Assembly (NCBI RefSeq): GCF_018873765.1
Contig: NC_057919.1
Span: forward strand, 65,342,984-65,406,983
Direction: 5' to 3'
From: Telopea speciosissima
Taxonomy: Eukaryota; Streptophyta; Magnoliopsida; Proteales; Proteaceae
DNA length: 64,000 nucleotides
The notes below the pieces were generated by a model. The model was not told the origin of the DNA, did no database searches, and saw only the letters and a list, made by a program, of their open reading frames with translations. Below, piece after piece: positions 1 through 53,420 of the stretch. The stretch's first letter is position 1. Each line of letters opens with the position of its first letter. The position numbers were made by a program, and so were the translations under genes.

Positions 1-3000
1 TGGTACAAACTACTTGATTTGGGCCAGATCATTATCCCTAACAGTGGCTGGTAGGGGACTCACTGGCCACCTCACTGGCACCACCAAACAACCTACTGAA
101 GAAGGTGTTGCTCGTACTAAATGGGCTGCCAATGATGCAATGGTAATGTCCTTTGTTCTGAACTCTATGACCACCGCCCTTTCTAGTCAGTATCTTCTCC
201 TTGACACTGCTACACAGATATGGACAGCTGTCAAGGGCACTTATGGTCGTTCAGGAAGTGGTGCTCAGGTTTATGAAATCAGGAAGACACTCCAAACCAC
301 TACTCAGAAGGAGATGTCTGTCACCAAATACTATGCTGCCCTCAAATGTTTATGGCAGCAATTGGATCACTATACTCGGTTTCAGCCTACTACTACTGCT
401 GATATTACTGCCTACCACACCTATGTAGACCAATTCCGTATCTATGATTTCCTAGCTGGCCTCAATGATGACTATGATCCTATTAGGGTGCAAGTCCTTG
501 GACGGGTTCCTTTCCCCACTTTAGAGGAGACTTTTTCTTATGTTCACAGTGAAGAGACACGACGGGCTGCCATGATGATTACTCCCAAAGTTGAGAGATC
601 AGCCTTACAGACTGCTGGCCCCACTCTTGTTGCTTCTTCTGACAGTGTTGCTGCTTCTACTACCAAAGAGCCTGTTAAGTGTGAGCATTGTCACAAACCA
701 TATCACACTAAGGCTCAGTGTTGGAAATTATATGGAAAGCCAGCTGATTTTGAGGCCAAATGTGGTCGTGCTAAATCTAAAAACAAAGCCAATCATACTG
801 AAAGTGTAGCTCCAACTCCCACTGCTGACATTGGTTTCTCCCAGGAAGAACTCCAGGCTTTGCGTCGTATGTTGAACACATCAACTGCCTCTACTATGTC
901 TGCTGCCAATTCAGGTTCCTTCTTTGCCCGTACAGGTATTTCTTTTGCTGGTCATTGTACATCAGTAGTATCCACTCCATGGATCATTGACTCCGGTGCT
1001 ACTGATCACATGACAGGTTCTTCTAGCCTTTTTAATACATATTCTCCTGCCTCTGGTAAGGATAAAGTCAAAATTGTTGATGGGTCCCTCTCCTCCATCT
1101 CAGGGAAAGGATCCATTGGTTGTTCTCCTTCCCTTACACTGTCATCTGTGTTGCATATTCCCAAATTTACAACTAACCTTCTTTCCATTAGCAGTATCAC
1201 TAAATCCCTAAATTGTAAAGTGACCTTTTTTCCCACTCACTGTGTTTTTCAGGAACTGGACTCGGGGAAGACGATTGGATTGGGTAAAGTGCATGGAGAA
1301 TTGTACCTGCTTGATGGCGATCCTACTCCGGCTTTGCCTTCGGCATCTTTCTCTTCTGATTTACATAAATGGCACTCTAGACTAGGCCATCCCCCCTTAG
1401 GTACTTTATCAAATTTATTTCTAGCATTAGTTAAAGACTGTAATACGGAAGATTTTTTTTGTAAGCCTTGTGTCTTAGCTAAACAGACGCGTTCAACTTA
1501 TCCTATTTCTAGTAAACGATCCTCTTCCTTATTTCATATTGTTCATACTGATGTGTGGGGGCCTAGTAGGAAAGCTTCCCTGACTGGCCATCGGTGGTAT
1601 GTCACTTTCATTGACTGCTATTCTAGGTTCACTTGGGTTTACCTTCTGCACACAAAGAGTGAAGTTTTTTTATGTTTTCAACACTTTCATCAAATGATTA
1701 AGACCCAGTTTAATGCCACTCTTCAAATTTTGAGGAGTGACAATGGGAAAGAGTATATGGAAGGTCAGTTCCAAAAATACCTTGCTGCACATGGAATCCT
1801 CCATCAGACCAGCTGTGTCGACACTCTAGCCCAAAATGGTGTGGCTGAGAGAAAAAACCGCCACCTCCTAGGGCCCTTATGTTTGCTCGCACTGTCCCTT
1901 CCCTTTATTGGGGGGATGCTGCCCTTACTGCAACCTATTTAATTAATAGGCTGCTCAATCGAGTTCTTCTTTCAAAAGCCCCTATTGAGCTATTACTTGG
2001 CTCTTTTTCCTTTATAGTCCCACCTAAGGTGTTTGGATGCGTTTGTTATGCTAGGGATACAAGGTCCCCTGGTAAACTTGACCCACGTAGCCTCCGCTGC
2101 ATTTTCTTGGGTTATTCTGCTACCCAAAAGGGGTACAAATGTTACTACCCTCCATCCCGCAGGACTTTTGTCAGCATGGATGTTGTCTTTCATGAACATG
2201 TTCCATATTATGTGTCCCCACCTCTTCAGGGGGAGAGTGTCAGTGAAGATGTGCTGACTATTGACTCTCCACCTCCACTTCAGTCTATTTACCATGAGTC
2301 TGAACCAGTTCGGCCTGCCCCTAGTACTCCCCCTAAGGCAGGGGAAGAGGTTCCTACACAGGGGGAGACCATTTCTATTTAAGGGGAGCAATCTACCCTG
2401 GTCCAGACTCCTATCCAAAGGACTATTAGTGAATTTCAGAGGAGGATTGATGCCAGTAATGTGAAGACCTATACAAGGAAACATAAGCAGGTTCAATCAA
2501 CTGTTGCTCCAGTACCCATCCAATTGCCGAACCCGGATCCAGAACCTGCCTCTCCACCTGGTAATGATCCTGACTTATCTATTGCTCTTCACAAAGGTAT
2601 CAGAACTTGCACTCAGCATCCCATATCTCATGTTGTTTCTTATGATTCCCTTTCCCCATCCTTTCGTGCCTTTATTTCCTCTCTTTCTTCTGTTCGTATT
2701 CCTAACAATTGGCAGGAAGCTTTATCAGACGGAAAGTGGAAGGCAGCTATGATGGAAGAAATGGACGCCTTGAAGAAAAATAACACATGGGAGCTTGTGG
2801 TTCTTCCACCTGGGAAGAAAACCGTTGGATGTAAATGGGTGTTTGTAGTGAAACAGAAGGTGGATGGCACTGTGGATAGGTATAAAGCACGACTCGTGGC
2901 CAAGGGGTTCACTCAGACATACGGCATTGATTACTAGGAAACTTTTGCACCTGTTGCAAAGTTAAATACTGTTTGTGTGTTATTATCTTGTGCAGTCAAC

Positions 3001-4235
3001 CTTGGATGGGATTTGCAGCAGCTAGATGTAAAAAATGCCTTCCTAAATGGAACACTGGATGAGGAGGTGTATATAGACATTCCACCAGGGTTCTCTTGTG
3101 ACAGAAACCAAGGAAAAATATGCAGACTGAAGCGCACACTTTATGGGCTGAAGCAGTCACCTCGAGCATGGTTTGGCCGGTTCCACAAGGCCATGATTTC
3201 TATGGGCTATAAGCGGAGTAATGCTGATCACACACTCTTTATAAAGAGGGTTGGTGAAAAACTCACTGTTCTTATAGTCTACGTTGATGATATAGTGGTT
3301 ACTGGCAATGATGGTGATGAGATCAGACGGTTGAAAACCTTCCTTGGACAAGAATTTGAGATTAAAGATCTAGGAAAACTACGATACTTTCTTGGGATTG
3401 AAGTAGCCAGATCTTCTAAAGGCATTTTTCTCTCCCAAAGGAAGTATGTCCTAGACTTATTGGCTGAGACCGGGTTACTAGGCTGTCATCCTTTAGATAC
3501 TCCTATGGACCCTACTGTTCGACTCAAGGAGAAAGAGGGTAAGCCTGTTGATAAAGGCCGGTACCAAAGACTTGTAGGGAAGCTGATTTATCTTTCACAC
3601 ACGCGCGTCGACATTCTTGCCGCCGTGAGTCTTGTGAGCGTTTATGCATGATCCCTACTCTTCTCATATGGAGGCTGTTCTTCGTATCTTGCACTATTTG
3701 AAGTTAGCTCCTGGAAAAGGAATTCTTTTGTCTACGCATGGTCATCTACGGATAGAAGCATACACTGATGCTGATTGGGCTGGTTCTGCTGATCGGAAGT
3801 CTATTTCTGGGTATTGCTCCTTTGTAGGTGGAAATCTTGTCACATGGCGTAGCAAGAAGCAAAATGTGGTTGCTCGTTCTAGTGCCGAAGTTGAGTTTCG
3901 AGCTATGGCACAAGGTATTTGTGAGTTACTATGGCTTAAAGGTTTGCTACAAGATCTTGGTGTTCCTATTCGTCTTCCTATGATGTTGTACTGTGACAAC
4001 AAGGCTGCCATCAGCATAGCACACAACCCAGTACAGCATGATCGTACCAAGCATGTTGAGGTGGATAGACATTTCATCAAAGAGAAGTTAGAAGCTGGGC
4101 TGATTTGTATTCCCTTTGAGACATCTGCGGATCAACTTGCTGATATCTTCACCAAGGGATTGTCTAGAAAATTGTGTCATCCCAATCTAGTCAAGTTGGG
4201 CATGATCGACATCTTTGCTCCAACTTGAGGGGGAG
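1..4235 (+). pseudogene. Ty1/copia gag-pol, broken and cut by the window edge
   Basis: Copia polyprotein in the order gag, protease, integrase, reverse transcriptase, RNase H. Visible: gag followed by a CX2CX4HX4C zinc knuckle (CEHCHKPYHTKAQC, about 685-725); protease WIIDSGATDHM near 980; integrase HKWHSRLGHP near 1365, HTDVWGP near 1545, LRSDNGKEY near 1730 and NGVAERKN near 1840; RT with YVDD near 3280; RNase H with YTDADWAG near 3760. It is not functional: the frame shifts near 1880, stops at about 2380 (TAA) and 2935 (TAG, where the family has Gln), and shifts again near 3645. The 5' LTR and gag start lie outside the window. A polypurine tract at 4227-4235 abuts the 3' LTR. Family identity is secure; activity is excluded by the breaks. 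Confidence 0.93.
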
Positions 4236-4553: not shown

Positions 4554-6703
4554 ATGCTGTTTACAGTTTGGAACATGAAAGACAGACTTCAAAGGTATAA
4601 ATGGAGTAACCTGGACATCTCCCTTTCCAGAAATGGAAGAAAGGGAACCATCAACAATTTTTACCTTATCTTTCCCAGAACAAACAGAATAGGAATCATA
4701 AAGCTGAGACCTACCAGTCATATGATCAGTGGCACTTGAGTCAATGACCTAGGGAGTGGTGCCAGAGGAGGTAGAGACCTGTAAAGCAGTGGAAGTAGTG
4801 GTAGTAGCAGAGGAGGAACCATCCATGTGGGCTACAATCCGGCGAAATGCAACTGTCTTCTTTGGAGAGAGAAAGGATGGATCAAACTTATGAACTCCAA
4901 CATGGGCCTAGGCCCATTCTTCTTCTGTCCTTTCTATCCTCCAGATGAAACAGAGGATGGCTTCCCGTGAAGATCCCAGCAAAAATCCTTCTTGTGCCCA
5001 GGCTTGCCACAATAGTCACAGGCGAATCTGCCATAGTTGTCATGGCGTCCTGGCGCTGGAGAGGGTTGCATGGCGACCTACGCCATGGCGTCCCTCTTTG
5101 ATTTCTTCTTCCTGTCTCTCTTTCCTTCTTCGATTTCTTCTTCCCTCTTCAATTTCTTTCGATTTCTTCTTTCCCTCTTCGATTTCTTTCGATTTCTTCT
5201 TTCCCTCTTCGATTTCTGAATTTTCTTCTTAAAACTTGAGAAACAATAGAGAAAAAATAAAACATGGCTTGAGTATACATCTATTAACACATTAAAAATA
5301 GAGAAAATAAAAAATAAAACATGGTCGACATGCTCGCCATGGCGTTGTCGATATATCGACGTGACACCCCTCCACCGACTTGGATCGCCGTGACGCCGTG
5401 ACAACTATGGAATCTACCCTTACCAGCTCCCTTAGTAGAGGGAGTACGGTCCTGAAGAATGGAAGAAACAAGAGCAGAGCGCTCAATAATGGGAGCGGTC
5501 TCTATAGCACCCCTACAGGTCTCCTCACTCTGTAGATAACCACACACCTCCTCTAGTGAGGGAAGACTGGGTCGGCCAAGGATCTGCACCCTTAAAGGTT
5601 CAAATTTAGGGTTAAAACCTCCAAGAAGGAACAAGGCCCTCTCCTTCTCAAACAACTGATGCACTTTGGGCTCATCATCAGGACACAACTGGGATCTCTG
5701 TAGTGATCATAGTCCTCCCAAAGTCCCACAACAAGACTATAGTATTCAGAGATACTTTCATCACCCTGTCGCAAGCTAACAATCTGTTGGAGGAGTTGAT
5801 AAACCTTTGTAGAATCTCCCACCCTATCAAAAATACGAGCAACACTATCCCAGATGTCTTTGGCAATCTCCTTGCTCATAAACCTTCTTCCAATCTCCGG
5901 CTTCATCGAAAAAATAAGCCAAGTCATCACAAGGGAGTTTTCGGTTTCCCATTTGGAGTACTCTGGATCAATAGAGGGGGGAGTCTTAATGCTCCCAGAT
6001 ATGTACCCCAACTTCCCTCGACTCCGAAGAATCAGCTTCATAGATTGTGACCAATCCAAGTAATTTTGGTTGTCAAGCTTGACAATGGGAAGTTGAACAT
6101 TTGGGTTCTCATAGGACAGAGGTGGAGGCAAGGCTTGTTGAGGCAAGGCTGTTTCAACATTTTTTTCACCCATCTTGACCTTAAGTCAAACACTTGGAAG
6201 ACCCAAACAACAGCACCTCAAGCAAAACAACTTCTCAAAAAACAGTAGTAAAAAATAGGGACAAACAGTGACAAAAAAATTGAAAAAGCTTGTAGAACCT
6301 CACACGATCATCAAACAGCAGCGGAGTAAAAAGGAGAAACCTTCCTTACCAAAAAATGATACTGAGTAGCCCAAAAAATCTCCCATACAAAGCTCTATTG
6401 AAGAGCTTTTTCCAATCAAGTACCCTGGCTGGCCGAAAAATCAGGCAGAACAGGCATGGCCGAAATGCAGTTCCAACCCTTTGATGCTTCCAAGAGACTT
6501 AAGATGATACACTGGGAAGAAAGAGGACTTCCAAACGAAACTAGAGCACCTGGTTGCTCTCCATTTGGATTCCAAACAAGGGAGAAACAGATCTGTGAAG
6601 ATGCCCTAGGGCTTTCTTCAAACGCCAACAAGAACCAAGAGAAAAGAACAATCCTTACCCTTCCAAACAACCTTCTATCACCTTCAAACTCTAGGAACAA
6701 TAT
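4554..6703 (-). pseudogene. Antisense copia gag/protease fragment
   Basis: On the minus strand a copia gag starts at 6173 (MGEKNVETALPQQ) with a gag N-terminal domain (KLDNQNYLDWSQSMKLIL, then MSKEIAKDIWDSV) and runs, with a frameshift near 5680, to a zinc knuckle near 5000 (CDYCGKPGHKKDFC). Part of the post-protease region is at 4560-4720 (SGKDKVKIVDGSLSSISGKG, also present in the first element, so the families are related). Integrase, RT and RNase H are absent: the fragment stops where the first element's LTR begins. The zinc-knuckle region is split by the MITE at 5032-5409. A roughly 530-bp leader separates gag from its LTR. Clearly dead. Confidence 0.85.
5032..5409. mobile_element. hAT-type MITE inserted in copia gag
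   Basis: 378-bp non-coding insertion with terminal inverted repeats CATAGTTGTCAYGGCG (left 5032-5047, right complement ending at 5409). The 8-bp flanks are GAATCTGC (5024-5031) and GAATCTAC (5410-5417), matching at 7 of 8, as expected for a hAT-type target duplication. Removing it joins the flanking copia gag into the zinc knuckle. Inside, at about 5110-5220, lie roughly 30-bp tandem units built on TTCGATTTCTTC. No transposase. Confidence 0.8.
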
Positions 6704-12106: not shown

Positions 12107-15100
12107 TTAGGCACGACAAAAATAATCAAACTTAATTTGAGGTTGAGAGTAATTTCCAAAAAGGATCTTCGATGTCACTTCGAGATTGGCCGCTTCAGTA
12201 TAGTGAATTCCATCCCAGCTTATATACCGCAATCCTTCGTTGCAAATGTTGTAACCAGTCTTGCCACAGGTCACATTAGGGTTGAAATTGTAAGGAGGAC
12301 CACCATAACCACAACATGCCATTAATGGATTCTCAAAACCTGTTAATATATAGTTGAAAGACCAATTGTTTACCTCTGCAAGTGTAATATATAGTAGTAC
12401 TATGAGACTATGAAAATGAATAAGATTAATAAGGTGGTATTGTAACTGACCATACTTAGTAGAATTTGCGATGAGGTCATACTTGATGGCATATATATCT
12501 ACATATACAATGGTGACATTCTTCATTTCAGTTCTCAGTTCTGTACAAAGGGCACTCAGCCCTTCATTAAACTGTTTTGCAGCATTGTTTAGTTGCTTGA
12601 GGCACCCATACTCATCAACTTCTACCGCCATTTTGCCAGTCATTGTCGAAAGCTTCTGAGGCAAACAACCAAGAGGCCCTGTGTTGTGTATCCAAATGTT
12701 CTTCCCTCCAGTCTTATATATGTTCTAGTTAAGATTTAGCAATGAAAGAAGAATTAGATATAAATGGGGGGGGGGAGGGAATCAAAGATGAAAACTTATA
12801 TAAAGGAATGGAAAGACCATATTGTGGGAAGAAGCCAGTTCCAGATAGATATTGCCCTGCTAAGAAACAAAAGGTTTGAAAATAAAATTTTGAAACAGTA
12901 CCCCACCCTTGTCCCGCCCATGTGTCTGATGCGCTCCCGGACAAAGAGCATGTGCCCTTATTTTTAAAGCAGTTTACCATTTGGAGAAAGTTTTTTAGCT
13001 CCTAAGGTCATTATTACTTCCTTTTACTAAGTAGAAGGCCGAAAATATTTTCTAGTATCTATCACTTTGTAATGATAGGCTGGGGGTACAGAGAAGCTGG
13101 GTCCTTACCATTTATAGAACACAAGGAGAAAGTTTAGACTGAATTTTCAGTTACCTATGATGAAGCTAGATCTCTTCGCTCATAGATTCCTTCTAGTGTT
13201 TAAATGAGACTCTTGAAATAGTGAGAAGGGTAGTTTGGACATTCATATACAGAGGAGGAGAGGTCATTATGGCATTTCAGTGGTGGGATTCCCTTCATCT
13301 ACCGTGAAAAATAACTTTCATCAAAATTTCATACATGATTGACTATATGACTGAGAGTAGAGCGACAGGACAGGAGAATCGTGGATTTAGTGCACAGTAT
13401 TGGATTGGGTATCGATCAGCTTTGAAATTGAGACCGATATCAGTATGTTTCGATCGAATAAGGTCAGATCAGACCATTTTACTCTCTTGTGTTCCGATAC
13501 CACCAATATGGTATCGACAATGTATTGACTAAAACCAATATGAATTCGGCCGACAGTCAATATTCCTAAAACCATGAGGAGGATTGACATGTTCCCTCTA
13601 TACAGGAATGAACCACCCACAAGGAAGAAAACCATGGATAGTGACAGTTCTCCAATGGTGATGTGAACGTGTGAGCGGAAATGAAAATAAACTCTCACCC
13701 AACAAAGAGAGGAGGATAAAAAAAGGAACTCACCCAAACAGCAGCCTTGATCTCTATGAGGAAGGATGGGATTTTTTGGATGACTTGATCATAGGAAAGG
13801 TAAGTGAATGCACCAGCAAGATCATTCTGCCCAATATCAAACATGTAGAGTGCATTCTGGAAGCCATCTCCATCGACCAAATCCTTCCAACCTTCAAAAA
13901 TAATATTTTCAGTACCCCATTTTGTAATACTACTCCATGATGATTTAGGATACCATTGCTTCCTAAGTGGCTTAGTCCTTTAGATTTTTAGAAAGTCTAC
14001 CTCTTATTGAAGGGTATTAACGATAAAATATAATTAATAAAAGAAAAAATCTTGTTGTAACCTAAGTTGGTGAAAAAGAGATTGTAATATTATTTTTTGT
14101 CTATTTTGCACAAAACAATTCTTCTTTCAATGAGGGTAAAACTTGTCATTTCACATGTTTACTCCATAGCGGTATAGAAATTCTTGAGAATGACATAATT
14201 AGAAGTCATTTTTTAAAATTATTTTGAAAACTTTTTTTTACCATTAATTTACCATTTTGGTTACAACAAGATGTACTCATAGAAAACTAAAGATGTTGAA
14301 TTACCTTGTCCCGTGAATTGAAGGGAGCGACTTTGAAAGCGAAGAAACTGAAGAATTTGAATGTCCAAAGAGAAAGGCACGAACTGCGGCAAGGTAGACG
14401 ATCCACTTATGGCGAAATTCGCCCCAGTTGTGAAATTTGGGCCCACTGACTCCAGATATGGGGTCATATAACTTATGTTCAAACTCTCACCTGTGATGGT
14501 AGGATATGAAGAAAATGTCTAATTATAGTCACAAGTGAAAAAGAGGAGAAAAAATGACCCTAAAAGAAACCATGACTCCAAGTTCTGATTTTCTCCCTGC
14601 TCTCGTCCTGCTTTTGTTTTATTTTTAAACACTAGATGATCATTTGAAGGCCTTAACTGATGATCTGAGCTCTTTCCCTCTCGTTAATGAAGCTTATCTG
14701 ACATCGTCTCACCAACCGCCTTTGATTCTTTTTACTAGACCAATTTATTTTGGGTAATATTTAGTTTCAGATTTGGAGAAAGTTTTCATTCACCGGGGAA
14801 GAAGAAAACACCTACGAATCTATAGCCATTATTACTCTCCTTATAGGACGAAGAATACCCTCATCCCATGGCAATGAATACCTATGGTTACAGAATACCT
14901 CTTTCACCATGTCGGAAGGGAAACTAAATCCTTCAGATTTTGCTCTGATTTGGTATCACTTTCGCAGCCCGCAGCAGAACTTGCTGACCACCCTCTACAA
15001 AATTTTGGATAAAAGCATAACCTTCTCACATGCTTAATGTGACTATTGAATAAAGCCAATTAATTTGTCACATATCAAAACCATGATTTTTTTTAAAACT

Positions 15101-21972: not shown

Positions 21973-35701
<13,729 letters not shown>

Positions 35702-37456: not shown

Positions 37457-38604
37457 TCCCGATGCAAAACATAAATAAATAAAATAAGAGATTAAACCCT
37501 AATTTTATGTGATCCAAAAGACGGGTCAAAATATTGACATAAACTTGGATCAGGTGTCATCGATTTTGATTCGAGTCGAGCGATTCACCTAATCTGATTT
37601 CGATTACCTTCTCATTCAATCATGGAAAATTAATAGCACAATGAAGTTTATTCCTTAAAAAGGAATGTTACTATTGATTGCTTTTATGGAAAAGATTTTT
37701 CTAGTCCAACAAGACTGCAATCCAATATAGAGTGATAATGGTTCTACCAACAAATTTTGACTTAGAAATAAATTGGTTGTGTGTTAAATTAGGGATTTAA
37801 ATTTCATCATATACATTCCCATTTCCCATTTCCCATTCCCATATATTGACATATACTTTTGTATTTTCTTTCGTTCACTTCTTTTCAAAAAAGTTTCATT
37901 ATCCCATTTCTCTAACTATATTTTAGGTAAAAAATTTAATATAAACAAGAACCATCAGATTTACATTTATTATTATTATTTTTTATTGAATTTTCCTCCA
38001 CCTACGGTGAATGTGATCTCATTCACCACAGGGTGGGAGAGGGTGGAAAAGGGCATCAGGAGGGTATTTTGAGAACATACTAAAATCCTATACAGGTTTT
38101 GGGAATCCTAGGATGGTGGGTGAACCATCCTCTATGAATAGAGGAAAATTTTCTCCCTTTTTTTTTTTTTTTTTTTCAGTAAAGTGATTTTAATTTTAAG
38201 CTATATCAATTTGTCATGTGGCAGAAATTTGTGCTACTCTAGGGCTATGTTTGGATGACAAGAAAAGAAAAAAAAAATTTTGAGAAGAGAGATAGACACA
38301 TAAATCATTTATTGCATCATTATGATTTTTGTCTCGTTATATTTCTTCTCTTCTTTTCTTGGCATTCAAAGTCCAAATATAACCTAAAGAAACTCTCTAG
38401 GCCTATTAGACTGAAAAAACTTTTATTTGGGCAAGGATTAGGCATCACGCCTACTCCAAGTAAGTTAGTGAGCGGCAGACATGTTGGAGGGGGACAACCA
38501 TGGGTAAGGGATCAGCTCACTGGGATGAGGAGAGAGGTAGACACATTGTTGGGTAGCCCGACAACGTGCCCATGCTTTTTCCTTTTTATTTTTAGGGACA
38601 GAAT
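37457..38604. other. Intergenic, repeats only
   Basis: 37490-37610 is a degenerate repeat; 37980-38150 is related to the GDSL-intron repeat at 15391. No gene. Confidence 0.4.
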
Positions 38605-38772
38605 GCCAACCAATGTTGTGTGTGGGCATGTACATGCGCCTAGACATAATCCGGCACGAAAAGACCGTCATTCCCCTCTGGAAAGGTGGAAAGGTCCAGG
38701 GGTGCGACAGTCTTTTCGCATCAGATTGTGTTTGGGCACAGGTACATGCCCACACACAACACCAGTTAGCGT
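38605..38772. repeat. Foldback MITE-like hairpin
   Basis: Arms of roughly 75 bp: GTTGTGTGTGGGCATGTAC near 38615 pairs with GTACATGCCCACACACAAC near 38742, and CACGAAAAGAC near 38655 pairs with GTCTTTTCGCATC near 38710. The loop is the CTGGAAAGGTGGAAAGG region. No coding capacity. Confidence 0.7.
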
Positions 38773-38846
38773 TCCTTTTCCCTTATTCTTAATACAAAAT
38801 TGGGAAAAAGATTGCTACACTACCTTTGTACAAATTCATTTATACC

Positions 38847-39084
38847 TAGGGGTGTAAGTTTGGCCTTGTCGGCTCGACCCCACCTGGTCCGTCCTGAGCC
38901 CGAATAGGGACTGGGCTGGATTTTTCAACCTTGAGGACGGGTTAAGCTTGAAATTTTTAGGCCCAGGGTTAGGGTCGGGTCGCGCCAAGGTTGAGGCCTC
39001 AAGCTAAGCCGACCCGGCCCAGCCTTATGTTAAGTTATGCTTTAAAATTTAGTGTTTACAGTTTACTATTTTTGTTTAGTATCA
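38847..39084. repeat. Degenerate hAT-like left end
   Basis: Starts TAGGGGTGTAAGTTTGGC and continues with GGGTCGGGTCG-type motifs. Related motif-rich sequence reappears at 40710-40890, on the other side of the Pack-MULE, suggesting the MULE inserted into an older element. The matching right terminus was not found. Confidence 0.4.
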
Positions 39085-39093
39085 AATTATCTA

Positions 39094-39345
39094 GGGTTTT
39101 TTACAATTACCACCCCAAAAACTTTGATATCTACTATTACCCCCCTAAAAACTTTCAAACAACTATTACCCTCCCTTGTTGCATACTAATAACTAACTGG
39201 CCCCCACCGTTACATTTTCGTAACGGAGAGGGTTAGTCGTGACAGTGTGCCGTTGTCACGGATTTTCTAGGACCAAAATGCCCTTTTGGGATGGTGATTG
39301 TAAAAAAACCCCCACCCCATCACCGTCCCTTCTCCTTCTCCTTTT
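39094..39345 (+). repeat. Left terminal inverted repeat of the Pack-MULE
   Basis: About 250 bp, matching the complement of 40258-40509 with scattered differences. It contains CCCCCACCGTTACATTTTCG and AGGACCAAAATGCCCTTTTG. The inner end overlaps the 3' end of the captured reading frame. Confidence 0.9.
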
Positions 39346-40187
39346 TCTTCCTCCTCTGCAACTTTCTCCTTTTACTATGTTGGATCCATCTCGCATCGGC
39401 TTCACCTCCACCACCAATTCTATCTTTTAATCGTTTTACATCCGAAAGCTTTACAGGTTTCACAATAAATTCCTCTGCTCCTTCCTCCAAACACCTATCG
39501 ATTTGAGGCAAGACATTTTTCGACGACATAATCACCACAGGAATTTCTCTGAAAGTCGAAGATTCCTGTTTGGAAAACATGTCGAAATAAAATCAGAAAC
39601 GAAATGAAATTTTTGCATGTCATTCTCTTGTGGAAATCTAAGAGATCAGAAATGTTAAGAAATCTTGAGAGAAAAATCGAACCTTGATTTTCTTAAGCAA
39701 CTCATATCCGTTCATTCCAGGCATACTGTAATCCGTTATTATCATATTAACCTTTAAACCCTGAAAAACAAGTCACCGAAGATGTAAGAAAATCTGTAAA
39801 TCAATAAAAATTGGAACTTTAAAAAATAAATCAACATTATGTTCAGTGAAACTTCTCTTACATTGAATCCCTCAGAGTTCTTCTTCTCCCCATCCAATCC
39901 AAGAAATTGAAGAGCTCTCGTTCCACTATCTACTATCGTCACTGAAGAAATTCCACCACATTGGTTCAGAGAACAACAAATGATGAAAATGTTGAAGAAA
40001 AAAAATTGAGAGATAGAGAGAGCGAGGACTCGGGGTCTAATTAAATAACATGAATTGGGAATCGACCTTTACAAGAGGAGATCTTGAGCAACCGTTCAAT
40101 AAGTTTTCGATCGACGAGGCTATCGTCGACGGCAAGAACATGTAATTCTTGAGAATCCGATGAGGAAGGATCAAAGAACTCATTCAT
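39320..40187 (-). CDS. Type-A response regulator captured in a Pack-MULE
   Basis: Receiver protein of the cytokinin phosphorelay (type-A ARR group). Exons 40067-40187, 39862-39941, 39683-39760 and 39320-39565 have GT-AG introns, agree in phase and sum to 525 nt, 174 aa without stops. Acidic pair Asp21-Asp22 ([19 protein letters not shown]), phosphoacceptor Asp77 ([20 protein letters not shown]), Lys129 ([15 protein letters not shown]). There is no DNA-binding domain, as in type-A members. The C-terminus is basic ([16 protein letters not shown]) and the last codons and TGA lie inside the left inverted repeat, so the tail is partly transposon-encoded. The natural promoter is probably not included: only about 70 bp separates the ATG from the right repeat. 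Expression is unknown; it could be a silent capture. Confidence 0.85.
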
Positions 40188-40257
40188 CTCCGGTACAGAA
40201 ACCTGTGGAAGAACATGTAATTCTTGAGAACGGGCACCCTAGTAACACACTCGAAGA

Positions 40258-40509
40258 AGAAGAAGAAGGAGAAGGGACGGTGATGGGGTGGGGGCTTTTT
40301 TACAATTACCACCCCAAAAGGGCATTTTGGTCCTAGAAAATCCGTGACAACGGTACACTGTCACGACTAACCCTCCCCGTTACGAAAATGTAACGATGGG
40401 GGCCAGTTAGTTATTAGTATGCAACAGGGGAGGGTAATAGTTGTTTGAAAGTTTTTAGGGGGGTAATAGTAGATATCAAAGTTTTTGGGGTGGTAATTGT
40501 AAAAAACGC
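40258..40509 (-). repeat. Right terminal inverted repeat of the Pack-MULE
   Basis: Complement of the left arm. It lies upstream of the captured gene's ATG, so any transcription of that gene would have to start in or beyond it. Confidence 0.9.
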
Positions 40510-40518
40510 AATTATCTA

Positions 40519-44961: not shown

Positions 44962-47900
44962 ATGATGAAGGAAAGCCAAGTTGCCAACTTCAATGCGTTC
45001 GAGATGCAAAGGCGAGGATTGCTGGTACAGAATAATTGTAAGTATTCACTTGGCACTTAACTCGTTATTCGTGAAATGCCAATGGTTAAGTTTCTTTATT
45101 CTATGCTTGTCTATATTATTAATGCGAATTTCCCTAGTTTTCTTGAGAATATCCATCATCAGAACCCATTACCAACATTTATAAAGATTAATTGAAGGGT
45201 TTGTTTCTATTGTTTGTTGTTGGTGTTCCAGGAGTTTGTTTATGGTTTTTGATATTTTATTTCATATATTTGTGAATCTAATCACTGGTGAGATCTTCTT
45301 CTTTTTTTTTGTGTATTATCATTAGTGAGATTTTAGTAAACTAATTATATATAATGTAAGAATTGATTAAAATTTTGTGTATTTGCTCAATTTATTAGTA
45401 TTCTTGTCGGGAATGAAGCTACTGCTGGTTGGTTGCTTTTCTGCGCCACAACTTCTAGATGGAGAGTTAAAATCAAGTATACTAAGAAAATGAGATAAAA
45501 TAAAATAGGTCTTTTATCCTTCTACACTTTGTGATCCTTCTCTTCTTTGAGGTGCGATGGAGGGCGGTGGTTGCGCAATTTGTTCTCAATTTTAGCATTC
45601 TAGGTATTATGAATAGAGTATAGGGAGAATATATTTACATAAAACTACTTGGTGTCACAGAAAGTGTGATTTGGGTAAAGGGAAGACCTTAAAGAAATGC
45701 TTAAGGATCCATTAGTGCAGATTCTTCAATATTCTTATGGAAAATGAGGAGGTAAAGAACAAGCCTTTTTTTTTTCTGAGAAGCATTAGCAGAGAAGGAT
45801 ATATGCTTCTTTCAAAAAACAGGCCAAACCAATCTTCCCCTCTCTTTTTTTCCTTTTCAGTTCACCAAATGTCTTGACCAAGGTAATCCTTGCTTGGTAG
45901 TCTCTTTTGGTTATAATGCAATTTTTTTACTTCAGTTCTAATGTTCTCTGTAACAGAACTGAAACTAAAACTAACCTGCAGCAAGACAACTAGAAGAAGA
46001 AAGCATAGAAGAGAGAAGAAGATCTGAGAAGAGAAGAAGGAGTAAAACCGAGAGAGAGAGAAGACTTCTCACGATTTAGTTGAATGACTAAATCGTGAGA
46101 GGCAGTTTTATTTATAATAGAACTTAAGTGAATTACAATAGAAAACCCCCAAAATACCCTTGAGACATAAAACTAATTAGAACTAATTAGAAAGAACCAT
46201 AAAGACATAAATAACCCCAAACAACTAAACACAATAATCTTAACACTCCCCCTCAAGCTAGAGCGTAGACATCACCAAGATCCAGCTTGGAACAGCCACT
46301 TGCAAACTGTGGTCAAAACAAAGCTTTGGTAAACATATCTCCAAGCTGAAACTGGGATCGAACAAAAGGAGTAGTAATCAGCTTCTTTAGAACAGCATCA
46401 CGAACAAAATGACAGTCAACTTCAATGTGCTTGGTTCGTTCATGAAACATAGGGTTGTTGGCAATATAGATAGCAGCCTGGTTATCACAGTACATCTCCA
46501 TGGGCTGATCACTGAAATAACCAAGCTCATGAGTAAAGGAACGAACCCACATCAATTCAGCAGCTGTGTGAGCCATAGCTCTGTACTCAGCCTCTGCACT
46601 GGAACGAGCAACAATAGTCTGTTTCTTGCTCTTCCAAGTAACCAAGTTACCACCAAAGAAAGTACAATAACTTGTAGTAGATCTACGCGGCATCAGAAAA
46701 TCCAACAATGCTAGTGTGTCCCTGACGGTGATAGACAAGGCCCTTGCCAGGAGCACCCTTAAGGTAACGTAAAATACGACAAGCAGCCTCCCAATGAACT
46801 TGCTTAGGCGTCTGCATGAACTGACTGATAACACCCACAACAAAAGAAATATCAAGACGAGTAACTGTAAGATAGATAAGTCTACCGACCAGGCATCGAT
46901 ACTGGTGTGGATCACTAAAGTCTGTGTCATCAGAAGCACCAAACTTGACATAGGGATCCATAGGAGTATCAATAGGTTTACAACTCATCATACCTGTCTC
47001 ATCAAGTTAATCAAGAACATACTTCCTTTGGGACAAGCTTAGACCGCGAGAACTGCGAACAACCTCAATGCCAAGAAAATACCTGAGATTACCCAAATCC
47101 TTAATCTAAAAATTGTCAAGTAGATATGTCTTCACATGGGCAATCCCAGAAGCATCATTACCGGTAATAATAATATCATCAACATATATTGCTAGGATGA
47201 CCACATTAGACCCCTGTCGTCTGACAAAGATAGAGTGATCAGAGTAGCACTGAGAAAATCCACAACCAGCAACAACACTGCTAAATTTATCAAACCAGGC
47301 ACGGGGGGACTATTTCAGTCCATAAATTGCCTTATGAATGCGACAAACTCGGACACTATCCTCCCCCTGAGCAACATAACCAGGAGGTTGCTCCATATAC
47401 ACCTCCTCCTGCAGGTCACCATATAAGAAAACATTCTTCACATCCATCTAGAAAAGGGGCCAGTCAAGGTTAACAGCCAAAGAAAGCAAAATACGAACTG
47501 AATTCAGCCTCGCAACAGGAGAGAAAGTCTCAAAATAATCGACCCCATAGGTTTGGGTAAACCCTTTGGCAACCAAACGGGCCTTGTGCTGCTCCACAGT
47601 ACCATCGGGATTGTACCTCACCGTGTACACCCAATGACACTTAACAAGATCCTTACCAGGTGGGAGATCAACTAAAGACCAAGTCTTACGAGAGATGAGA
47701 GCCTCCATCTCCACATCCATAGCATTTTTCCACTTAGGGTGAGACATAGCAATGGTATAAAAAGTGGGAATAAAAGTAGAATGTAATGCAGTAGCAAAAG
47801 CACAATAATGAAGAGAAAGATGAGAAATAGACACATAATTTGCCAGAGGATAAAGAGGACGAGTAGTGCAAGTACGAGTACCTTTTCTCTGAGCAATAGG

Positions 47901-50900
47901 GAGATCATCAACACCAACAGGAGGATCTACAGTCAAAGAATCAGCTGGTGGCGGTAAAGGAGTGGCCGCAATAGGTTGAAGTGGGAGCAACGACTGCTGT
48001 TGGTGACGGCGCACATAAACCTGTACAGGTGGGGCAGCTATCGGTAGAGGAAGAGGAGGAAGAGGAGCAGGGGCAGCAACCCGACCAACTTCATCAAGAT
48101 TAACATCAACAGAGGAACCAGCAAAATAAGGGGAACTCTCGAAAAAGGTAACATCAGCAGAAATAAACTGTTGGTGAGTAACAGGGTCAAAACATCGATA
48201 CCCCTTCTGGGTACGAGAATATCCAAGAAACAAACACTTAACAGCCCAGGAAGATAACTTATCAAGCCCTGGGCGAAGCACATGAATAAAACAATGACAA
48301 CCAAAAACACGAGGAGGAAGAGAGAAGACAGCCCGATCAGAAAATACTATGTTGAAAGTAATTTGATTATGTAGAATAGATGAAGGCATACGATTAATCA
48401 GAAAATAAGCTATCAACACCGCATTTGCCCAATAGAGTTTGGGAACATGCATATGAAACATCAAAGAACGAGTGACATCTAATAAATGGCGATTTTTGCG
48501 CTCTGCCACACCATTTTGTTGAGATGTATAAGAGCAAAAAGTTTGGTGAAGAATGCCATTGTCAGAACAAAACTGAGAGGCCTCACGCTGAATTAATTCA
48601 AGGGCATTGTCAGTACGCAAAGTTTTTAAAGAAACACCAAATTGAACTCGAATTTCATTATAAAACTGTTTGAAGACAGATACAAATTTAGATCTATCCT
48701 TTAAGAGGTACAGCCATGTCATCCGAGAGTGATCATCAATAAAACTAACAAAATAAGAAAACCCTAACCGACTTTTGACCCTACAAGGACCCCAAATATC
48801 CGAATGAACCAACTGAAATAAAGAAGTACTCCTAGACTCTGGACTCAAAGGAAAAACAGTACGATGATGCTTGCCAAGCTCACAAGCTTCACACTAGATA
48901 CGGGAGACAGACTTGCAACTGGGAACAAGGTGCTGCAGCTTAGATAGAGAAGGATGTCCTAGCCGATAGTGCCAATGTAAAGGAGATACGCCAGGAGAAG
49001 TAGCAACCGCTGCAGTGGATGTAGTTCCCAAATCAAAGTAATAGAGGCCTCCCTTCTCATACCCGCCACCAATCTTCATCTTTGTTGCAAGATCCTGAAA
49101 GACACAATAAGAAGGGTGAAAGGTTATAGAACAATTCAAAGTTTTAGTTAATTGACTAACAGACAAAAGATTAAGAGGAAGCTTGGGAACATGGAGAACA
49201 TTAGTTAAAGATATGTCAGAAGACAAGGAAACTTTCCTATTGATTGGTATGGAGGATCCATCTGCAATAGAGATCCGAGATGACATAGAAGGCTGTGTGT
49301 AAGATGAAAACAAATTAGGCTTATCGATCATGTGAGAAGATGCTCCGGAGTCAATGACCCACGGGGAGGATGAGGACGCGAAGCAAGCAGTAGTACCTGA
49401 GTGGGCAAGGACAGCTGTAGATGTAGAAGAAGAAGTCTCAAGTTGCAGGACTCGTTGTAAGAGTTGAGAGACTAAATCATTAGAAGAGTTACCACCATCA
49501 GTAGAGGATCCCGGGGCAGTGTCGGAAGAGTGCACAGAATCAGCCCCTCCATCAGAAACGACAGAATTTGTAAATTGCTCACGGGCCCACTGTGGTTTGC
49601 CATGTTTGAGCCAACACTTATCAACAGTATGATTAGACCGATTACAATGAGTGCACCATCGAGAACTAGCATCAACAGAACCAGAACTAGCAGTGTTAGA
49701 CATAGTCCCACGACCTCCAGAACCAGCTCCACGACCACGCCCAAAATTAGAACCACGATCGCGAGAAGAGGTACTACCACCACCACGGCCACGCCCTCCA
49801 GTAGAAGTGAAAAGGGCAGAATTATCTTTGTCGGTAGGAGCTGAATCAAACTTCACCACTGAAGGGGATATAACTCTCTGGAGCCGACAATAAGCTTCAT
49901 TCATAGAGGGGATCTTCTCTCCAATCAACAATTGGCTTGTGATGGATTGAAGATCAGAGTCTAACCCAGAGAGAAATTTGGCAACCAAAAATTCAGATCG
50001 TTGGGACTTAATTACAGCAGCATCAGTAGAAATAGGCTGGTATACATTAAGTTCTTCCCACATCCCCTTTAATGAACTGTAATACTCACCAAGGGATTTT
50101 CCATCTTGTTTAAAAGAGAAGAATTTCTTATAGAGATCATAAATTCGGCACAGATTTGTATCTTGAGAGTAGCTTTCCTTGAGTTCTTCCCAAACACCCT
50201 TGGCAGTTTTATGAAACATAACATTAGAAGCAATGAAGGGTTCCATGCTATTCCAAAGCCAGCAAAGAAGGGTTGCATTCTTAGCCTTCCAATCATCATA
50301 TTTGTCATCAGTAGATTGCAGAGGTTCCATGGTAAGGTATTTCATCTTCCGGCGAGCAGTGATATAGACCTCAAAGCCTTGAGACCAAAGTAGATAATTA
50401 GAAGCACCATTCAGCTTCACACTGGTAATCTGAATGTTAAAGTTGCCGGTAGAAGACTTAGCATCAGCCATTAGGGAAATTAATAGATGCAAACACCAAT
50501 ATCAATATCAGCCCAAAGGAAAAACCCTGATCAGGGTAAAATCGATAGCCTTGAAGAATAGGGCAGAACAGCCCAATACAGAAGTTGAATCTTGATGAAG
50601 ATAACCAGCAATAATGATGTATAATCACTGTAAACCCAGCAACAAGAATGAAGGACAGATCCCAGAAGAAAAACAAATCGATTTCCACAGGGTTTTGGAA
50701 TATCGATTGTCAGGGTTTAGGGACAAGCAGGAACCAATCTTCAAGAGCTTCGAACAGCAGCAGAAACATACACAATCAGTTGTAGCATAGCAGGGAACTC
50801 TAGTCCTTCATGAATATATGACTAGAGTTCAGATCAATATAAGCAGCATATGGTTGCTGTAGACCACGATATAAATAAAGAGGTGAAAAACCTTCAAAAC

Positions 50901-53420
50901 AGCAGCAGTAAGGAGAATCTCGTGGATCAGAATTTATTGCTTTGATACCATGTAACAGAACTGAAACTAAAACTAACCTGCAGCAAGACAACTAGAAAAA
51001 GAAAGCATAGAAGAGAGAAGAAGATCTGAGAAGAGAAGGAGTAAAACCGAGAGAGAGAGAGAAGACTTCTCACGATTTAGTTGAATGACTAAATCGTGAG
51101 AGGCAGTTTTATTTATAATAGAACTTAAGTGAATTACAATAGAAACCCCCCAAAATACCCTTGAGACATAAAACTAATTAGAACTAATTAGAAAGAACCA
51201 TAAAGACATAAATAACCCCAAACAACTAAACACGATAATCCCAAACAACTAAACACGATAATCTTAACATTCTCAATCCTTGGGTGGAAAGGCAAAGAAG
51301 ATTCAGTTGGAGTTCTCTTATTTGTGAACCACTCTGATTCAAGTTGGATAGGATTAATATCTTGGCTCGGCTGGGCCACTAACTCTTACAGGCTGACCTC
51401 AAGTACTTATGACTCAAGGTTCATGTGACATCAGCAACATGCTTGTGAAAGTATAAATACCTTTATAGTTAAGTATGCAATTACTGTTCACATTTCTCTG
51501 GATCTTAATTAGACCCGAGGTGCCAGCCTAGTTTGAAGTAACTGGTTTAGAATCTAGGCTTTCTGGTTGAAGTGAACATACTGTGGAAGATAGCTATATT
51601 TACCATAAGTTGCTCAAAAAGTTGCATCCTTAGAGGCATGGAAGGAGAAAAAAAAGAGATATGGCCAAGCAAAATCTTTTTGAGTATTTGTTAATTGAAT
51701 TAAGTATAGTTTTCTGGAGGGTTGTTATCTCCCCTGTCTCCTTCAACAGTTGGTATTGTGGGAAGACCTAGGCTTCATTGAATAAGCTAAACCAATTTAT
51801 CAAAAGAAAAAAAAAAGGGTCTAAACCTAAGAGCGTTACTAACTGCTACTCTTGCTTACTTATCTATTCTTCTCTCTTGGATATTATTTAATATACTGTA
51901 AACAGATATGTAATCTCAATCTCCAATGGTGTCTTAGGGTTGCTTTCATTGTATTACTACTAGTTATGTGCCATACAGTTGAGTTTTGAGAACTGTTAGT
52001 TTGTTATTAATAATTACAATCTCTAATGGTGTTTTAAGATTCTATTATGTTTATTCTACTTCTAACCAATCAGGTTTACAATATCACAAAAAAAAACCTG
52101 GATTACAAGTGTGCTTGGCCACACTATATTATTTTATCTTCTTTAGGCAAACCAAAAATTTTATTAACAATGAAAGGTTATGTGTATGAGATGTACAGCG
52201 CCCCCCCCCCCTCCCAAAAAAAAAAAAAAAGCCTTTAAAAGCTTTACAAGAATGCATATGACAGAAACTTATCTCTGTGCAGATTACTCTTTTATAAGAT
52301 GTAGCAATTGAACACTCTTGGGGATGCCTTCAACAGCAAAAGCTTGCATAGTTTTAGCCCACCTCATGCTTTTGTAGCATGACCACCCTTTAGTTGGTTA
52401 ATTGTTTTAGAACTTGTGTGGTGAACTGGTGATAAGGTCTAACTTAAGTACTTAACCATGAAATTTTTTATTTAACCTCTTCTTATTGAGGTTCTGGATC
52501 AATCCTGGACTGACTTACATTTCTTAATTATTACTTAGTAAACTTACCTCATTAACATATTTTCAGCTGGTGGAATATCATGCTAGCACTATTTATCCAT
52601 GCACAGAGCAAATAAGCACACTATTAAATCAAACACAAAAGAAACACAAACAAAAACAAAACAGAGCAAAGATGACACAGAGATTTAACGTGGTTCACAC
52701 ACCAATATGATGTGCTATGTCCACAGGCAAAGCTGAAGATGATTCACTATGAAATGGAAACAGTGGAGATCTCTCAAGAACGTCCAAAGCGACGGATCAA
52801 GCTCTCTTCTCAAAACCCTAATATGAAACCCCAAATCTCACGCCTTTTCTCTTGCTTACACAACAAGACACGGAAACATATAAATACTCCTCCCAGTCGG
52901 GTTGGGTCGGGTTGAACCGTACTACGGGGACTTGGCTCCTGCACCCCCAAACAAGATCAGTGATGGGCTTCGGGCTTGAGCCTATCAGCCCAAGCCCTCC
53001 ACTGCCATCACAGACCTCAGAAAAAAACCCCATTCGTGTTGCCACCAAAAATGTCGGAGCGGGTCAATCTTTGAAAACAGGTGCAAGAATTCGAAACACA
53101 CATAACACACACGAAGACCCATGGATGGAACAAAGGAGATGACAGTTCCTACCTAAACTATATAGCTCACCATTTACTAGAATTTTTTCCTCCTATAAGT
53201 TAAGTAATCAAAACTATATGTTTTGTATTAAAAATGTAGGAAAAAGAGGCTTTTGCTGTAACTTAGCAGAATGTTTTTTAGCATAGTGTGAACACAGCCT
53301 ATATTGGACCACCTCTTGACTTGCTGATTCTGCAGCAGTTGTACAATTTGCACATCTTGGCATCCATTGAGCAATATATTGAGCTAAGTAGAGAGCTGCA
53401 GAATGGGCCATATAAAATGA
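44962..53420 (+). CDS. Unrecognised gene, first two exons, copia in intron
   Basis: Not recognised. Exon 1, 44962-45037, starts [20 protein letters not shown] and ends at a GTAAGT donor in phase 1. Exon 2, 53298-53420, follows an AACACAG acceptor, joins in phase and reads [20 protein letters not shown] then [19 protein letters not shown], ending at GTATAG. The joined product so far is 66 codons, mostly helical in character. Later exons were not found; without splicing, the frame ends near 53476. The 8.3-kb intron contains the complete copia element at 45949-51269. Phase agreement and splice consensus support the model, but joining two exons over 8 kb by eye is uncertain. Confidence 0.4.
45949..46245 (-). 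repeat. 3' LTR (element orientation) of the complete copia
   Basis: 297 bp, next to the CTCCCCCTCAAGC complement of the polypurine tract. It contains an internal palindrome around CACGATTTAGTTGAATGACT and AAATCGTG. Confidence 0.93.
46313..50471 (-). pseudogene. Copia gag-pol with nonsense mutations
   Basis: Gag starts at 50471 ([14 protein letters not shown]); zinc knuckle [14 protein letters not shown] near 49650; protease [11 protein letters not shown] near 49350; integrase [11 protein letters not shown] near 48970, HSDIWGP near 48795, LRTDNALEL near 48620, [12 protein letters not shown] near 48500; RT domain after VKCHWVYTV near 47630 with YVDD near 47180; RNase [12 protein letters not shown] near 46590. 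Stops interrupt it at about 48896, 47449, 47311, 47107 and 47010, four of them TAG where the family normally has Gln. Near 46690 a deletion and frameshift remove most of the RNase H DADWAG motif. Confidence 0.92.
50951..51269 (-). repeat. 5' LTR (element orientation) of the complete copia
   Basis: 319 bp. Compared with the other LTR it has a few substitutions, small indels in the GAGAAGAAG and GAGAGA runs, and a roughly 23-bp tandem duplication (CCAAACAACTAAACACGATA repeated at 51218-51260). Confidence 0.93.
51275..52639 (+). other. Intron-like AT-rich sequence, no gene
   Basis: Continuation of the intron interrupted by the copia element. No coding or transposon signature recognised. Confidence 0.4.
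52640..53110. repeat. LTR or TRIM-like remnant
   Basis: Contains CAGAGATTTAACGTGGTTCA followed by CTATGTCCAC, a motif common in plant LTR/TRIM sequences, then AAAACCCTAATATGAAACCCC and a TATAAATACTCC box. Terminal TG...CA borders and target duplication were not identified. Confidence 0.4.

Follow-up and report, generated by a model that had tools for sequence, protein, structure and literature searches.

A Mutator-like element carrying a truncated copy of an ARR5-like response regulator in Telopea speciosissima

The 64-kb window analysed here, by which is meant the whole stretch of Telopea speciosissima DNA under study, contains a 1416-bp element (39094-40509) bounded by two long inverted arms (39096-39350 and 40253-40507, 255 nt each, 96% complementary, with 902 nt between them). 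Copies of a perfect 9-bp target duplication, AATTATCTA, abut both ends of the element, and a match of a given 9-mer by chance has a probability of about 5e-6 at the local base composition. The inverted repeats and the duplication reported in the initial annotation are thus borne out. Between the arms lie four minus-strand exons, interrupted by three GT-AG introns, which together encode 174 amino acids. The features on which the argument rests are the following.

21973-35701, minus strand: WW-domain reading frame and pieces of a DEAD-box helicase (PF00397, PF00270, PF00271)
39085-39093, no strand: left copy of the target site duplication, AATTATCTA, by sequence identity
39094-39350, plus strand: left terminal inverted arm, by inverted-repeat match
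39094-39310: outer 217 bp of the left arm, with 27-nt inverted ends of its own (89% complementary)
39565-39320, minus strand: exon 4, holding S107, K109 (T+2), Q114 and K129
39760-39683, minus strand: exon 3, holding the phospho-acceptor Asp77
39941-39862, minus strand: exon 2, flanked by GT..AG introns
40187-40067, minus strand: exon 1, with the ATG at 40187 corresponding to donor Met15
40209-40230, minus strand: 22-nt repeat of exon 1 at the 5' breakpoint, identical in DNA to 40134-40155
40231-40252, no strand: 22-nt filler between the right arm and the exon-1 repeat, with at least 7 mismatches to the best other site in the window
40253-40509, minus strand: right terminal inverted arm, on the 5' side of the gene, by inverted-repeat match
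40296-40506: outer part of the right arm, with 24-nt inverted ends of its own (100% complementary)
40510-40518, no strand: right copy of the target site duplication, AATTATCTA, by sequence identity

No second element with the same arms was found in the 64-kb window, where the arms and interior, apart from matching the element itself, find only low-scoring matches of 17-30 nt, near 16.1 kb, and a 46-amino acid reading frame from the left arm, used as a probe for other elements, gave no matches. A scan of the whole window for pairs of inverted ends accompanied by 9-bp duplications also returned places near 10.4, 32.4 and 46.1/51.1 kb. A hAT-like start at 38847 that would have enclosed the element was rejected, there being no partner end rightward on the minus strand. 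A foldback with 77-nt arms, 77% complementary, occupies 38601-38774. Elsewhere in the window, the reading frames at 14-4228 and 5284-6173 look Copia-like by eye, a fragment of a GDSL lipase (PF00657) lies at 12107-12664, and a scan of the window against Rfam returned nothing at gathering scores.

The initial annotation described a four-exon gene with consistent splice sites, 174 codons and the residues Asp21/Asp22, Asp77 and Lys129, and its coordinates and residue numbers are exact; it was silent on the strand of the gene, which is minus, on the arm-encoded C-terminus and on the lost donor ends. The protein carries the residues expected of a receiver (the Asp pair at 21/22, D77, Ser107 and K129), and Pfam places Response_reg over residues 17-136 with an E-value of 5.1e-21. 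The overlapping NCBI protein P0005, discussed below, was modelled with AlphaFold2 from 36 of the listed proteins, with a mean pLDDT of 67.6, which is too low for fine argument; its PDB matches are receivers, with TM-scores by query of about 0.43-0.52 among the matches listed. Residues 164-174 and the stop have no donor counterpart, residues 166-174 and the TGA (39322-39320) being encoded by the left arm.

The five best protein matches are four Telopea speciosissima proteins and one Macadamia ARR5-like protein. Three of the Telopea proteins (P0001-P0003) lie on a 65.8-Mb sequence, while P0005, the protein of the element locus, lies on a 72.07-Mb sequence; P0001-P0003 and the Macadamia protein P0004 all begin 14 residues before the opening Met of the copy, and all possess a Ser-rich stretch after KRRKLQ or KRKLQ. 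Compared with these proteins, the copy lacks donor codons 1-14 and the Ser-rich C-terminal tail, and the captured segment starts near donor codon 6, retains the introns and extends through the KRRKLQ motif, where it ends. The receiver is closest to that of P0002, an ARR5-like protein with the same catalytic residues but with the N-terminus and Ser-rich tail that the copy is without, from which it differs at four of 128 columns (V29L, T43I, E109K and R114Q; 97% identity over 127 columns). Residues 1-14 of the copy match P0003 rather than P0002, so the donor is taken to be some member or ancestor of the Telopea group and not P0002 in particular. A tree of 20 rows chosen from 121 groups the copy with the four Telopea paralogs (five rows) with support of 99/92 and gives no resolution within the group. 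By its best matches and its place in the tree, the copy clusters with ARR5-like proteins and is of type-A origin.

Type-A response regulators are defined by a native start and a C-terminal extension, and their expression is induced by cytokinin. The copy possesses neither the native start, its own being donor Met15, nor the C-terminal extension, so that by alignment the capture is that of a complete receiver domain without a complete gene. The description of the locus as an intact type-A response regulator therefore holds for the receiver, which is complete, but not for the donor start, the tail and the sequence upstream of about codon 6, which were not captured; it is further weakened by the changes at E109 and R114, which are constant or nearly so in relatives.

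These comparisons also bear on whether the gene is native to the locus, with the arms arriving later on either side of it. The introns and the receiver are intact, as that would predict, but both ends are missing relative to Telopea P0001-P0003 and Macadamia P0004, and only one target duplication is present, placed outside the two arms taken together, so that a native origin deserves almost no credence. The search for a parental gene proposed at the outset, made at the protein level only, succeeded to the extent of placing the nearest paralogs on another chromosome-size sequence. Because the arms are long, the duplication is 9 bp and paralogs elsewhere retain both of the terminal regions that the copy has lost, the element's classification as a non-autonomous Pack-MULE (a Mutator-like element) holding a truncated copy of a Telopea ARR5-like type-A response regulator is well supported at the level of sequence, and the capture by a MULE-type element that was originally proposed is upheld by the arms, by the duplication and by the fact that the Telopea paralogs map to a chromosome-size sequence other than that of the element.

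One further Telopea protein, P0007 (on a 67.75-Mb sequence), was considered as a second transposon copy and rejected. This ARR5-like model has anomalous termini, carries Asn at position 22 and shows 10 residues that occur nowhere in the conservation background; it looks like a decaying copy. Of the element's changes it shares V29L but not T43I, E109K or R114Q, and its receiver differs from that of P0002 at 11 positions, so that it may not descend from the element. V29L also occurs in Brassica P0121.

The structure of the arms and of the 5' breakpoint is informative about the route of capture. The outer 217 bp of each arm, with its own inverted ends, resembles a small complete element, which is what would be seen if two neighbouring short elements flanking the gene had been mobilised jointly through their outer ends. 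This Pack-TYPE fusion model is described in passages of PMC8903248, where it predicts contiguous donor DNA. Inside the nested inverted ends, however, the two arms have about 40 bp more in common, which is unexpected of two independent insertions; the 5' side is not contiguous with the donor, being occupied by the exon-1 repeat and the filler; and the closest paralogs are found on another sequence of chromosome size, an argument tempered by the chance that a fused element has changed place in the meantime. Joint mobilisation is on this evidence an unlikely route. Upstream of the ATG and in frame with it, the exon-1 repeat encodes SQELHVL and is joined to the donor-encoded VLPQVSVPE, and the last 6 nt of the repeat (8 if the donor Asp codon is GAT), as judged from the donor protein, would match the donor sequence at the join as well. 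A join at 6-8 nt of homology favours capture by template switching; microhomology at one or both breakpoints is reported for 190 (67.6%) of the animal Pack-TIRs in the part of PMC8277862 that treats them.

The sequence of events that best accommodates these features would begin with the copying of a genomic segment of an ARR5-like gene, introns included, between the arms of a Mutator-like element, probably during aberrant gap repair in which the template was switched, an event that would account for the short exon-1 repeat and the short filler seen at the 5' breakpoint; the element would then have come to sit at its present site with its 9-bp target duplication. The two arms have diverged by 3.5%, which amounts to about 1.8% for each arm from the time when the two were alike, although the capture itself may be older.

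The captured exons are already represented in public annotation. The NCBI protein P0005, under an ARR5-like name whose listed part mentions no transposon, maps to the window over 175/175 residues in six minus-strand blocks, of which the first (46576-46517) is a piece of Copia RNase H, the next four are response-regulator sequence and the last is 35817-35770; this full match identifies the window as Telopea DNA. The RNase H piece, the first exon of P0005, belongs to a minus-strand Copia element at 45949-51240, whose LTRs (45949-46239 and 50951-51240) are 97% identical over a 293-nt alignment. The last block lies just before the ATG (35701) of the WW-domain reading frame which opens the DEAD-box helicase, and exon 4 of P0005 (39404) is joined to 35817 by a GT..AG junction. 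If that junction is used, the captured exons could serve as an alternative leader of the downstream same-strand helicase and the element could act on its neighbour. P0005 starts, however, with the Copia piece over a junction to exon 1 that is not GT-AG in the window, from which it follows that P0005 may be a prediction artefact, and a leader role is accordingly rated very improbable. Within the helicase span and on the same strand, 27732-28094 is an ATP synthase alpha/beta fragment (PF00006) that by eye resembles organelle atpB.

A gene model at the locus, together with the 174-codon open frame, the GT-AG introns and the retained catalytic residues (DD, D, S and K), could also be taken to indicate a functional new gene that is transcribed either out of the right arm or from farther upstream and whose receiver-only protein drains phosphate from His-phosphotransfer proteins and so damps cytokinin signalling, with kinetics altered by Lys at T+2. 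Within the element no TATA[AT]A or AATAAA motif is found on the coding strand, and two ATGs precede the start, one of which lies in the exon-1 repeat and opens a frame of 10 codons that terminates in a stop overlapping the main ATG; these features count against expression as a gene. So do the substitutions at near-constant sites. Of 156 relatives, all of them listed matches, 155 have Glu at position 109, one has Asp and none has Lys; at position 114 all 156 have Arg and none has Gln. S107-S108-K109 aligns with Thr-Ala-Glu of CheY (3h1g), which identifies K109 as the T+2 residue; E109 thus corresponds to E89 of CheY, and Glu89 mutants of CheY occur among the titles of the matched PDB entries. 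Passages of PMC8510515 and PMC12632262 state that the T+2 residue influences receiver reaction rates, and those of PMC8510515 add that bacterial receivers often have Lys or Arg at T+2 and that its pairing with Met at D+2 is associated with slow autodephosphorylation. Lys109 need not, on this account, be fatal. Because the D+2 residue here is Ser and not Met, which itself tells against the working-gene reading, the direction of any kinetic effect of K109 is unpredictable. That the copy works as a gene is distinctly improbable.

The distribution of the changes can be compared with that seen among other regulators. Three of the four receiver differences between the copy and P0002 fall in columns that are at least 90% conserved (91 of the 128 columns qualify), compared with 39 of 166 differences in 38 close pairs from other species (one-sided P 0.043), the conservation background comprising 111 of the 120 listed matches (the best 120 of 3427), with P0001-P0009 and the window copy left out. 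This pattern looks like relaxed constraint, as far as four changes can indicate. The corresponding counts against P0002 are 0/6 for Macadamia P0004, 1/4 for P0003, 5/7 for P0001 and 9/11 for P0007, and since P0001 keeps both ends and still shows 5/7, the pattern is one of relaxed duplicates in general rather than of the transposon copy specifically. The dominant phosphate-sink role that the initial annotation envisaged is possible but gains no support from these results, in which the residue changes, small in number, resemble relaxed constraint.

An open frame does not by itself prove selection. In a neutral simulation of codons 1-162, with transitions set by us at 67% and indels at 0.12 per substitution, the frame, splice sites and phase survived together in 26% of runs at 1.8% divergence, 15% at 2.5%, 7% at 3.6% and 2% at 5%, so that between 1.8% and 3.6% an intact frame is retained in 26-7% of runs without selection. 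At a divergence of 3.6% or more, the joint survival of frame, splice sites and catalytic residues without selection becomes improbable, which counts against a neutral passenger. The loss of the gene's own start and end and the changes at constant positions make a passenger more likely than a working extra gene, and the copy is probably a passenger without function, its receiver frame having been kept, as we infer, through the youth of the copy and not through selection. The explanation as a whole, a young Pack-MULE capture made by gap repair with template switching and carried as a neutral passenger, is given a probability of roughly 0.78.

With Pack-MULEs in general the element has in common its long inverted arms, its 9-bp target duplication and its intron-bearing host gene segment; it differs from them in holding a whole receiver in frame, in its nested arm ends and in the breakpoint repeat of a captured exon. 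It also resembles the MULEs with multiple terminal inverted repeats described in PMC3310237, since each side has the end sequence more than once; in those MULEs, however, the additional copy lies mostly in tandem and shows similarity across 100 bp or more, whereas the repeat of the end in this element spans 24-27 nt and is in inverted orientation inside each arm. In the open-licence literature no paper was found that brings type-A response regulators and cytokinin together with transposon gene capture, although the element may still have been described; one paper, PMC8232201, mentions both Pack-MULEs and response regulators.

It would be a long shot to suppose that a tail-less receiver with a phosphate lifetime altered by E109K has become a transposon-born competitor in Telopea cytokinin signalling, possibly also within a helicase leader. 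The element is of interest because it holds sequence captured from a single gene, with a breakpoint scar that can still be read, so that a template-switching origin of the exon-1 repeat can be checked against donor DNA. A second point of interest is that the captured copy passes in public annotation, as P0005, for an ordinary ARR5-like gene, and as such would inflate counts of cytokinin regulators.
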